DNA of 64,000 bases, from positions 434,001 through 498,000 of the forward strand of contig NZ_AUJB01000008.1 in the NCBI RefSeq assembly GCF_000424005.1, read 5' to 3'. Each line of letters opens with the position of its first letter. The stretch's first letter is position 1. Shown here in pieces: positions 27,068-30,354 of the stretch. This stretch comes from Pseudobutyrivibrio ruminis CF1b. GTDB lineage: Bacteria > Bacillota > Clostridia > Lachnospirales > Lachnospiraceae. The notes under the pieces were generated by a model. The model was not told where the DNA came from and did not search any database. It saw only the letters and a list, made by a program, of their open reading frames with translations. The position numbers and the translations under genes were made by a program.

Positions 27068-27109
27068 AGTTACTATTCACAGTAAAGTATTGTGAATAGT
27101 AACTTTTTT
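27068..27109 (+). terminator. Terminator after the COG0523 pair
   Basis: A perfect 14-base stem: AGTTACTATTCACA (27068-27081) with TGTGAATAGTAACT (27091-27104), 9-base loop, then T6. Confidence 0.92.
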
Positions 27110-27123
27110 ATGCGCTTTAACAC

Positions 27124-27188: not shown

Positions 27189-28079
27189 ATGTATCCAATC
27201 GTAAAGAAGGAAAAGCTTTCTGATAAGATTTTCCTTATGGTGGTTAAGGCACCACGTGTTGCTGACGGTTGCTTACCAGGTCAGTTTATTATCGTAAAGA
27301 TTGATGAGGAGGGTGAGCGTATTCCTCTCACTATTTGCGACTATGATAGAGCAGAGGGAACAATTACTATTGTATTCCAGATTGTAGGCGCTTCTACAGA
27401 GCGTATGGCACTTCTTAATGAAGGAGATGCATTCGCTGATTTCGTAGGTCCTTTAGGACAGCCTTCAGAGCTTTGTCTTGAAGAAGATTTAGAAGAGACT
27501 AAAAAGAAGAGCATAGTCTTCATCGCAGGTGGTGTTGGTACAGCTCCAGTATATCCACAGGTTAAGTGGCTTAAGGAGCACGGTGTTAAGACTACAGTTA
27601 TTATTGGTGCACGTTCAAAGGATATCCTTTTCTATGAGGACGAGATGCGCGAAGTAGCTGATGAGCTTTACCTTGCAACAGATGATGGTAGCTATGGTTT
27701 CCACGGAAATGGTTGCCAGCAGCTTCAGGCACTTGTTGACGCAGGAAAGAAGTACGATCACTGCGTAGCAATCGGTCCTATGATTATGATGAAATTTGTA
27801 TGTCTCCTTACAAAGGAGCTTGGCATTCCTACAGTTGTTTCTATGAACCCAATCATGGTTGATGGAACAGGTATGTGTGGAGCTTGCCGTCTTGTAGTAG
27901 GTGATGAGGTTAAGTTTGCTTGCGTTGATGGACCAGAGTTTGATGGTCACCTTGTAGACTTTGATCAGGCTATGGCTAGAGCAAAGCAGTACAAGACAGA
28001 AGAAGGCAGAGCACTTCTTAAGCAGCAGGAAGGTGACACACATCACGGCGGATGTGGACATTGTGGAGGTGACAAGTAA
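27189..28079 (+). CDS. nfnA: NADH-dependent ferredoxin:NADP+ oxidoreductase, small subunit (NfnA type)
   Basis: FAD- and [2Fe-2S]-containing subunit of the electron-bifurcating transhydrogenase; also annotated as sulfide dehydrogenase or GltA-associated subunit. 296 residues from ATG 27189, set by AAGGAG at 27175-27180. FAD-binding RIPLTICDYD near 50, nucleotide-binding IAGGVGTAPVYPQ near 112, GARSKD, and the cluster cysteines in GTGMCGACRLVVG plus a later FACVDGPEF. The C-terminal GGCGHCGGDK tail is an extra Cys/His patch. Stop and nfnB start overlap by one base. Confidence 0.88.
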   Translation: MYPIVKKEKLSDKIFLMVVKAPRVADGCLPGQFIIVKIDEEGERIPLTICDYDRAEGTITIVFQIVGASTERMALLNEGDAFADFVGPLGQPSELCLEEDLEETKKKSIVFIAGGVGTAPVYPQVKWLKEHGVKTTVIIGARSKDILFYEDEMREVADELYLATDDGSYGFHGNGCQQLQALVDAGKKYDHCVAIGPMIMMKFVCLLTKELGIPTVVSMNPIMVDGTGMCGACRLVVGDEVKFACVDGPEFDGHLVDFDQAMARAKQYKTEEGRALLKQQEGDTHHGGCGHCGGDK

Positions 28080-29467
28080 TGGGAGACGTTTTAGTTAGAG
28101 TACCTATTTCAGAGCAGGACCCAAAGGTTCGTGCTACAAACTTTGAAGAGGTTTGTCTTGGATATACAGAGGAAGAGGCAGTAGAAGAGGCAGGTCGTTG
28201 CCTTAACTGTAAGAAGCCTATGTGTGTAGGCGGCTGCCCAGTTTCTATCAATATTCCTGCATTTATCGAGCAGGTTAAGGAGCGCAACTTTGAGAAGGCT
28301 TATGAAATCATTTCTGAGTCATCAGCTCTTCCAGCAGTTTGTGGTCGTGTTTGCCCACAGGAGTCACAGTGCGAAGGCAAGTGTATCCGTGGTATCAAGG
28401 GTGAGGCAGTAGCTATCGGAAAGCTTGAGCGTTTCGTTGCTGACTGGGCTCGCGAGAATGGAATTAAGCCAAAGAATACATCTACTCCAAACGGACACAA
28501 GGTAGCAGTTATCGGTTCAGGCCCTTCAGGTCTTACTGCAGCTGGCGATCTTGCAAAGCTTGGTTATGATGTTACTGTATTTGAAGCCCTTCACGAGATG
28601 GGCGGTGTACTTGTTTATGGTATTCCAGAGTTCCGTCTTCCAAAGGACAAGGTAGTAAAGGCAGAAGTTGAGAACGTAAAGGCGCTCGGCGTTAAGTTTG
28701 AGAAGAACGTAATCATCGGTCGTTCAATCACAATCGATGAGCTTATGGAAAAAGAAGGCTACGAGGCTGTATTCATCGGTTCAGGTGCTGGTCTTCCAAT
28801 GTTCATGCACATTCCTGGTGAGCAGGCTAACGGTGTATTCTCAGCAAATGAGTACCTTACACGTAACAACCTTATGAAGGCTTTCAAGGAAGGTTATGAC
28901 ACACCAATCGCTCGCGGCAAGAAGGTCGTAGTAGTAGGTGGTGGTAACGTAGCTATGGATGCTGCACGTACAGCACTTCGTCTTGGAGCAGAGGTACATG
29001 TTGTATACCGTCGTTCTGAGGCAGAGCTTCCTGCAAGAGCGGAGGAAGTTCATCACGCTAAAGAAGAGGGCGTTATCTTTGACCTTCTTCAGAATCCAGT
29101 TGAGATCCTCGTTAACGAGGAAGGCTCAGTTCGTGGATGTAAGGTTATCAAGATGGAACTTGGCGAGCCAGATGCTTCAGGCCGTCGTCGTCCAGTAGAG
29201 ATTCCAGGTAGCGAGTATGAAATCGAGTGCGATACAGTTATCATGTCACTTGGTACATCTCCAAACCCACTTATCTCTAGCACAACATCTGGTCTTGATA
29301 CAAACAAGAAGGGTTGCCTTATCGCTACAGAGCAGGGCGCTACAACAAAGGATGCTGTATTCGCAGGTGGTGATGCCGTTACAGGTGCAGCTACAGTTAT
29401 CCTCGCTATGGGCGCAGGTAAGACAGCAGCCGCAGCAATCGACGAGTACTTCAAGTCTAAGAACTAG
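28079..29467 (+). CDS. nfnB: NfnB / glutamate synthase small-subunit-like flavoprotein
   Basis: 462 residues. N-terminal 4Fe-4S cysteines in CLNCKKPMCVGGCP and CGRVCPQESQCEGKC, then FAD motif GSGPSGLTAAGDLA (about 141) and NADPH motif GGGNVAMDAARTALRLGA (about 285). Sequence alone cannot separate NfnB from glutamate synthase GltA, but the adjacent NfnA-type subunit and absence of the large glutamate synthase subunit favour the bifurcating NADH/ferredoxin/NADP+ enzyme, which balances reduced ferredoxin in fermenting anaerobes. Cytoplasmic complex. Followed by a terminator. Confidence 0.88.
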   Translation: MGDVLVRVPISEQDPKVRATNFEEVCLGYTEEEAVEEAGRCLNCKKPMCVGGCPVSINIPAFIEQVKERNFEKAYEIISESSALPAVCGRVCPQESQCEGKCIRGIKGEAVAIGKLERFVADWARENGIKPKNTSTPNGHKVAVIGSGPSGLTAAGDLAKLGYDVTVFEALHEMGGVLVYGIPEFRLPKDKVVKAEVENVKALGVKFEKNVIIGRSITIDELMEKEGYEAVFIGSGAGLPMFMHIPGEQANGVFSANEYLTRNNLMKAFKEGYDTPIARGKKVVVVGGGNVAMDAARTALRLGAEVHVVYRRSEAELPARAEEVHHAKEEGVIFDLLQNPVEILVNEEGSVRGCKVIKMELGEPDASGRRRPVEIPGSEYEIECDTVIMSLGTSPNPLISSTTSGLDTNKKGCLIATEQGATTKDAVFAGGDAVTGAATVILAMGAGKTAAAAIDEYFKSKN

Positions 29468-29486
29468 ACTAATATCAACTATATGG

Positions 29487-29518
29487 CGGTCTCTGGGAAT
29501 CCCAGAGGCCGTTTTTTT
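29487..29518 (+). terminator. Terminator after nfnB
   Basis: CGGTCTCTGGG (29487-29497) pairs with CCCAGAGGCCG (29501-29511) with one mismatch, followed by seven T. Confidence 0.9.
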
Positions 29519-29530
29519 ATGCAATTTAGT

Positions 29531-29820
29531 CAGCTTGCCCCAGCCCCTAGATTTTTATGGTGGCCCGCTATGGCCCTGGTGTGTCCGTCTCCCTCACCTT
29601 CCACTATCGCTCTCACAGAATTATGATTTTCTAAATACTACGTGTCGCTTTCTTAATTGGTAAGTGTCTTTTCAATTCTTTGCACTTCTGTCAAGAATGT
29701 GTGCTTAACACAGACATGAATTTTATTTTATTTAATATTCTCCAAAATTTTTGTTGAAGGTTGCTGGACATTTGGAATGAGCTTAGTAGAACTTAAAGAG
29801 ATATTTGAATTGTAAGGGCA
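29531..29820. repeat. Left arm of a long imperfect inverted repeat
   Basis: About 290 bases whose sequence matches the reverse complement of 29881-30168 along its whole length, roughly 70% by eye with small indels. The best block is TGGCCCGCTATGGCCCTGG followed by GTGTCCGTCTCCC and CACCTTCCACTA. No protein is supported: the left arm has stops in frame with peptides seen from the other arm. Confidence 0.85.
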
Positions 29821-29880
29821 GCTGCCGCTAGGACGGCGGCAGCAGTGGTCACCTGAAACAGGACGTTGAATGTGCCACGG
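29821..29880. other. Centre of the inverted pair with GC-rich hairpin
   Basis: Sixty bases between the arms. GCTGCCGC (29821-29828) pairs with GCGGCAGC (29836-29843) around a short loop; CCTGAAACAGG forms a second small hairpin. It would be the loop of a giant hairpin if both arms are transcribed. Confidence 0.6.
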
Positions 29881-30168
29881 TGCCCTTACAACCAAATATC
29901 CCTTTTTTAGTTCTACTTAGCAAATGGAACATGAAAGCAACCTCAACAAATAACTTTGGAGAATATTTATAGATACCTAACATGTCTGTGGAAAGCACAA
30001 CATTCTCTTCGAAGTGCAAAACCAGTGAAAAGACACTTACAAAAGCTCCACTTGTAGTATTAAAAAAATCTATAATTCTGCTCAAATGCTTTAGTGGAAG
30101 GTGGGGGAGACGGACACCCCAGGGCCACAGCGGGCCAGTGAAGGTAGTGTGGGGCTGAGGCAGGGCTG
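29881..30168. repeat. Right arm of a long imperfect inverted repeat
   Basis: Inverted, diverged copy of 29531-29820. Both inner ends read TGCCCTTACA / TGTAAGGGCA; conserved patches include AATATTCTCCAAA, CACAGACATG, GTAAGTGTCTTTTCA and AGTAGAACT. Read on the minus strand it is open for much of its length, but without a ribosome binding site. Confidence 0.85.
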
Positions 30169-30180
30169 AAATTTGGGCAC

Positions 30181-30208
30181 AAAAAACGGCCACCATAAAT
30201 GGTGACCG
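30181..30208 (-). terminator. Minus-strand terminator of the 43-codon gene
   Basis: CGGTCACCA / TGGTGGCCG stem (30187-30195 with 30200-30208) followed on the minus strand by six T (A run at 30181-30186). It sits 15 bases after the stop of the small gene. Confidence 0.85.
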
Positions 30209-30222
30209 ACATATATTAAATA

Positions 30223-30354
30223 TTAGTCTTCGTACTGACCAAAAGCATACTTGAAGAATGATACTGGCTCCTTGCCTGCGTTCTTCTGAACTCTGCAATA
30301 CTTCTCATAATCTGAATAAATTGTGTACATCTGGAATGATACTTCTTCGAACAT
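30223..30354 (-). CDS. Small hypothetical protein, 43 residues
   Basis: Begins MFEEVSFQMYTIYSDYEKY and ends VSFFKYAFGQYED; acidic and aromatic-rich, no membrane segment, one Cys. I do not recognise it. Everything around it argues for a real gene: a perfect AGGAGG site 8 bases before the ATG, TTGACA/TATCAT promoter with 17-base spacing, and an intrinsic terminator just after the stop. Monocistronic, divergent from the tetR-type gene. A regulatory small protein or part of the neighbouring non-coding element is possible. Confidence 0.8.
   Translation of the reverse strand: MFEEVSFQMYTIYSDYEKYCRVQKNAGKEPVSFFKYAFGQYED

Follow-up and report, generated by a model that had tools for sequence, protein, structure and literature searches.

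The stretch of DNA analysed here (the window) comprises 64,000 nucleotides of Pseudobutyrivibrio ruminis CF1b and carries, between two convergent reading frames, a long palindromic element at positions 29531–30168. The upstream gene (28079–29467) codes for an oxidoreductase with Fer4_20 and Pyr_redox_2 domains, presumably of the glutamate synthase small subunit type ('gltA'), and its 3' end borders the palindrome. On the 3' side of this gene, an intrinsic-terminator-like hairpin (29485–29520, plus strand) points into the element, and another one (30181–30208, minus strand) points into it from the right. Next to the latter, outside the element, lies an ORF of 43 aa (30223–30354, minus strand), convergent with the upstream gene; in 16 of the 27 genus genomes compared, related sequence adjoins the upstream gene. 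Terminator-like hairpins facing inward were thus found twice at the element (1.0 expected), one on each side, and therefore little transcription should enter it; promoters showed no excess there (1 found, 1.5 expected). Inverted similarity goes on outward beyond both terminators, with 26 nt at 85% (29466–29491 and 30204–30229). In L142 (G008) and other filled copies of this site, the 3' regions of the convergent neighbours also resemble each other in reverse complement, in G008 roughly as far as the stop codons, a pattern that would result from copying of flank sequence from one side to the other.

The long imperfect palindrome is genuine. Alignment of the sequence to its reverse complement produces 300 pairs, of which 243 (81%) are Watson–Crick, and a score of 492, whereas 200 shuffles reach at most 58 and 195 further stretches of 638 bp from the window at most 98; the BLAST identity of the arms including gaps is 72% over 701 columns. 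These values, far above the controls, bear out an earlier note on this DNA, which had described two inverted arms matching at about 70%, and the nearly intact blocks that it pointed out correspond to a 46-bp outer stem. RNA folding of the palindrome yields −337 kcal/mol (z −21) for the plus strand and −355 kcal/mol (z −24) for the minus strand, with 20 shuffles each. The open frames that cross the arms, 148 aa on the plus strand and 149 aa on the minus strand, are judged to be non-coding. From the outside inward, the outermost arms (29531–29560 and 30138–30168) form 21 of 27 pairs; the outer stem, C-rich on the left (29561–29606) and G-rich on the right (30092–30137), is paired at 43 of 46 positions and is unlike the outer stems of other copies; the inner arms (29607–29770 and 29932–30091) form 124 of 152 pairs; and the apex occupies 29771–29931. 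The same order characterises the element in general, that is, a short outer match, often some 10–16 nt unpaired, an outer stem, inner arms and apex. The outer stem is 30–60 bp long, near-perfect and C-rich on the inward-reading strand, and the C-skew, which was considered as a Rho-site signal, continues into the flanks. Throughout the genus the inner arms (about 160 bp on each side) resemble one another, and their internal loops recur at the same places.

The apex gave the only match of an Rfam search of the 64 kb, to RF01731 (TwoAYGGAY), on the plus strand with 60.9 bits against a cut-off of 43 and over the full length of the model, so that the palindrome can be named; the earlier note had recognised no nameable class of ncRNA. 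The Rfam model has 168 positions, in contrast to the 638 bp or more of palindrome found here. The two AYGGAY hexamers to which the family owes its name are missing from both strands of the window's apex, and on the plus strand of 79 genus copies at least two are present in 10, one in 23 and none in 46. TwoAYGGAY has been described as a likely RNA that is probably not a cis-regulator, with occurrences in human gut, gamma-Proteobacteria and Clostridiales (PMC2864571), and is put forward as a CsrA-binding RNA on the basis of motif matches (PMC4333381). Among the papers listed by a literature search there was no report of TwoAYGGAY mobility or of long palindromes around it, and nothing relevant on palindromes in Lachnospiraceae or in the genus, or on the end sequence of the element.

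The element is single-copy in the window's own genome, and 26 of 29 Pseudobutyrivibrio genomes have matches, with up to 23 match places in one genome among the matches listed, where one copy can give two places. RF01731 is present in 35 of 200 genomes of the family Lachnospiraceae (at most 13 candidates scored per genome), and no match to the element was found in a phage or plasmid collection. The palindromes of the genus are mostly of 0.6–0.8 kb. For 26 of 27 copies from other genera (a set without L058, which belongs to the same genus, and L059, truncated at the end of its contig), the palindrome exceeds 30 shuffles of the same copy and usually extends past the limits of the Rfam model; in L041 and L056 the best palindrome is not centred on the apex. 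Among the 79 genus copies examined, 73 had both anchors located under permissive matching, and the stem filter left 56, which have both outer arms. This count bears on the proposal that two single arms of a dispersed repeat came to lie head to head by chance. A dispersed family does exist, and that half of the earlier note's suggestion stands; the pairing of single arms does not, since it is contradicted by the copies with both arms and by the pattern of pairing around the apex, which recurs between copies, and a chance pair is extremely improbable. Nor do the homologues consist of many single-arm copies devoid of covariation, the finding that the same note had held to be decisive for such a pair, since both arms are the rule and covariation is present.

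Comparison between relatives indicates that these elements move. At the window's site, from the upstream gene to the 43-aa ORF, 8 of 27 genomes are filled, 8 are empty and 11 are not assessable; G027 is one of the filled genomes, but the left outer arm is missing there. For a 625-bp copy of G027 at another site, the matching place in the window's genome is empty. The family is therefore multi-copy, dispersed and variably present between relatives, as MITEs are, even if single-copy in the window's own genome. The ends of some copies bear a TTACCATTCACAG-type motif, which was scored as TTACYATTCACAG with at most two mismatches and was found at both ends of 12 of the 79 genus copies and at one end of 2 (both ends in 0 of 79 and one end in 1 for the reversed-motif control). 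Eight end-bounded copies (seven from G007 and one from G027) were inspected for direct duplications, and five of them, all in G007, have duplications of 7–8 bp, namely TCTTACTC, TAGGGATT, AGAGCTGG, AAAAATCC and the 7-bp CGATTTT; the two other G007 copies and the G027 copy have none. Since these five copies combine TTACCATTCACAG-type ends with target duplications, the family transposes. The copies of G016, G018 and G020 that carry TTACCATTCACAG-type ends show no target duplication in their flanks, and a systematic scan confirmed two duplications, retrieving non-palindromic 8-bp ones in 2 of 77 genus copies and in 0 of 27 copies from other genera, six of its eight duplications being self-palindromic 8-mers and thus artefacts. 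L277 contains 275 N and its interior is not comparable. The window's copy has neither a TTACCATTCACAG-type end nor a target duplication, and is assigned to the family by its sequence, structure and site. No autonomous partner was found among the candidates encountered, all of them elements of the IS4 family, whose ends are different and which sit within hairpins.

The outer stems vary greatly between copies and are nonetheless paired within each of them. The median score of the outer arms is 42 within a copy (73 copies, anchor failures included) versus 8 between copies. None of the 16 same-genome pairs with an inner identity of at least 0.95 share the outer stem, and only 3 of 66 do so at an inner identity of 0.90–0.95; among different-genome pairs with at least 0.95, on the other hand, 6 of 14 share it, and the flanks show each of these six pairs to occupy one and the same site, in one case by the flank of a single side. 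For example, the window's copy and a G019 copy occupy the same site (flanks 93% and 87% identical, inner identity 0.93), and yet comparison of the outer stems gives scores of 9 (left) and 14 (right) between the two copies versus 40 and 42 within them.

Changes in the two arms were then classified as double or single. Four G020 copies gave double-to-single ratios of 51:48 in the outer stem and 20:88 in the inner arms, and four G007 copies gave 23:57 and 15:73, respectively, whereas independent change would predict about 6 doubles (G020, outer), about 3 (G007, outer) and about 1 and 1 (inner), with each arm at its observed rate, one third of double hits pairing by chance and positions unpaired in both ignored, the pairs of copies being not independent of one another. 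At flank-verified orthologous sites, doubles numbered 17 in 11 comparisons, where about 1 was expected, and singles 49, although a single pair with a gapped, uncertain alignment contributes 7 of these doubles (L007/L105 and L007/L005 were excluded because their flanks do not match). Both arms thus change together above chance; at short range many changes affect one arm alone, and over longer spans the pairing is retained. Since singles outnumber doubles 49 to 17, homogenisation of the arms is not instantaneous. In addition, of 9 sites checked by their flanks, 3 have the inner part in the opposite orientation with respect to the flanks. One explanation for the variable stems is that a fresh outer stem is captured at each insertion, from the target or from elsewhere, and decays afterward, which would agree with the lack of shared stems in the 16 closest same-genome pairs and with the predominance of single-arm changes between close orthologous sites. 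This is contradicted, however, by the five G007 copies with duplications, which are 64–92% identical in the same-side stem; moreover, the empty site of the G027 copy is without the stem and double changes are above independence, so that capture at each insertion is very unlikely.

Whether such paired changes reflect an RNA or a DNA constraint can be approached through the mismatches that the helices tolerate. Inside the helices of a functional RNA, G.U should far exceed A.C. By one symmetric method applied to both sets with a flank of 2 pairs, in-helix G.T:A.C mismatches amount to 99:155 in 77 palindromes versus 78:8 in SRP RNA (27 genus sequences), and to 67:95 versus 16:4 with a flank of 3 pairs and 53:66 versus 8:1 with a flank of 4, the counts not being independent, as related copies share mismatches. 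When the palindromes are read from the other strand the bias is 61%, still distant from the SRP control. In the palindromes, therefore, pairing of the RNA type, in which wobble is tolerated over A.C, is absent. The hairpin RNA of about 640 bases that the earlier note had envisaged lacks the wobble signature of the rod-like SRP RNA of the same genus, and the covariation that it proposed to look for is there as pair-preserving change in homologues, but not of the kind left by selection on an RNA.

A long regulatory RNA that is transcribed and adopts a rod-like structure, such as the CsrA-titrating sRNA proposed for TwoAYGGAY, would account for the Rfam membership of the apex, the strong folding on both strands, the pair-preserving changes in the arms and the published match to the CsrA motif (PMC4333381). 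It is nevertheless unlikely, given the mismatch ratios in comparison with SRP RNA, the lack of a promoter excess, the flanking terminator-like hairpins, the mobility and multiple copies of the element, and the absence of AYGGAY from the window's copy and from 46 of the 79 genus copies. About equally unlikely is a hairpin of single-strand DNA of the attC or REP type, in which a recombinase or HUH transposase reads the folded strand and selection keeps the pairing. Pairing retained without a preference for wobble, recurring internal loops and the variable sequence of the stem agree with it, and selection on a folded single DNA strand would leave marks similar to those of exchange between arms at the DNA level; on the other hand, the 7–8 bp duplications and terminal inverted ends of the G007 copies fit double-strand cut-and-paste better. 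Template switching between inverted repeats has been described to result in arm homogenisation and spacer inversion (PMC8604942), and has been proposed to create and maintain hairpin stems (PMC8794818). Maintenance at the DNA level is preferred here because the wobble signature is lacking and because homogenisation and inversion are the products of template switching.

The element at 29531–30168 is thus probably a non-autonomous, dispersed (MITE-like) mobile DNA palindrome whose arms are maintained at the DNA level. The window's copy would be one resident of a palindromic DNA family with TwoAYGGAY at its apex, the copies of which have moved between intergenic sites and are bounded in G007 by TTACCATTCACAG-type ends and 7–8 bp target duplications. 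After insertion, the arms would be kept complementary by exchange at the DNA level, in which a polymerase may switch between the arms at the hairpin base, copying one arm onto the other and occasionally inverting the sequence between them; the double changes and the in-place inversions are the reason for proposing such a switch. Neutral template switching does not account for the recurrence of the inner loops or for the apex, both of which suggest some constraint. A broader proposition, for which the chances are a little below even, is that TwoAYGGAY in this lineage, and perhaps throughout, is the tip of a mobile DNA palindrome and that its covariation stems from arm-to-arm DNA copying and not from an RNA function; the window's copy, which scores above the curated cut-off, differs from the published family by belonging to a mobile family, lacking the naming hexamers and lacking RNA-type wobble.

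MITEs and fold-back elements are a known kind of mobile DNA in bacteria, and the element shares with them its non-coding nature, multiple copies, inverted ends and, in five G007 copies, short target duplications; it differs in that the arms fill nearly the whole element and that the outer stem is variable between copies and yet paired. REP/BIME and ERIC sequences are likewise intergenic palindromic repeats and targets of insertion sequences, as the palindromes described here are, although the element here is much longer and has a shared apex. The inverted repeats of the template-switching studies (PMC8604942, PMC8794818) have in common with it arm homogenisation, multi-base double changes and spacer inversion, but concern short repeats and RNA genes, as opposed to a mobile unit of 0.6–0.8 kb. 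If the DNA-level explanation is true, template switching would be naturally recorded in such elements, whose stem would be renewed in both arms at once, and dozens of palindromes of the same family would make template switching and spacer inversion measurable in bacteria. Covariation is widely read as proof of a functional RNA; pair-preserving change without the wobble signature, as found here, could mislead RNA discovery, and counting G.U versus A.C with an SRP control is a cheap test against it.

Tolerance of long palindromes might be sought in the loss of SbcCD. A match to SbcD above the curated cut-off is present in 3 of 29 genus genomes, with a split match just below it in G003, and the SbcD match of the window's genome is weak and partial. 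Loss of SbcCD was rejected as the reason for tolerance, as the SbcD-bearing genomes G002 and G028 have 23 and 21 match places, respectively, among the matches listed; there is no simple link between the two.

Finally, hairpins of this lineage are also associated with insertion sequences. In L317, a 461-aa IS4-type transposase lies between TTACTATTCACAG ends. The IS4 family was rejected as the autonomous partner, because its insertion sequences have CAATGTCATT-type ends of their own in hairpin tips (L317, L338–L341, L348, L354 and L357), and the outer TTACTATTCACAG ends are therefore their target; in L337 and L342, no arrangement of an insertion sequence in a hairpin tip was found. Two IS4-family elements of G028 lie inside the TwoAYGGAY hairpin, each with what looks like a duplication of about 10 bp (GGACGGCGGC in one case, GGAAGGCGGC in the other), and other members lie in the tips of terminator-like or TTACTATTCACAG hairpins, so that hairpin tips appear to be the target of those IS4-family insertion sequences that have CAATGTCATT-type ends. 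Pairs of TTACTATTCACAG also bound elements of 29–293 bp (L318–L333), several of which have 7–8 bp duplications by eye, and those longer than 29 bp had no Rfam match inside. In G000:C13:5532 and G027:C52:6487, two such ends are only a few bases apart, like the remnant of a hairpin. Of 200 family genomes, 28 contain the 14-mer GTTACTATTCACAG, with a maximum of 43 occurrences, whereas its reversed form occurs once each in 8 genomes. In the window itself, at 27068–27110, an inverted pair of TTACTATTCACAG forms a terminator-like hairpin followed by T6.
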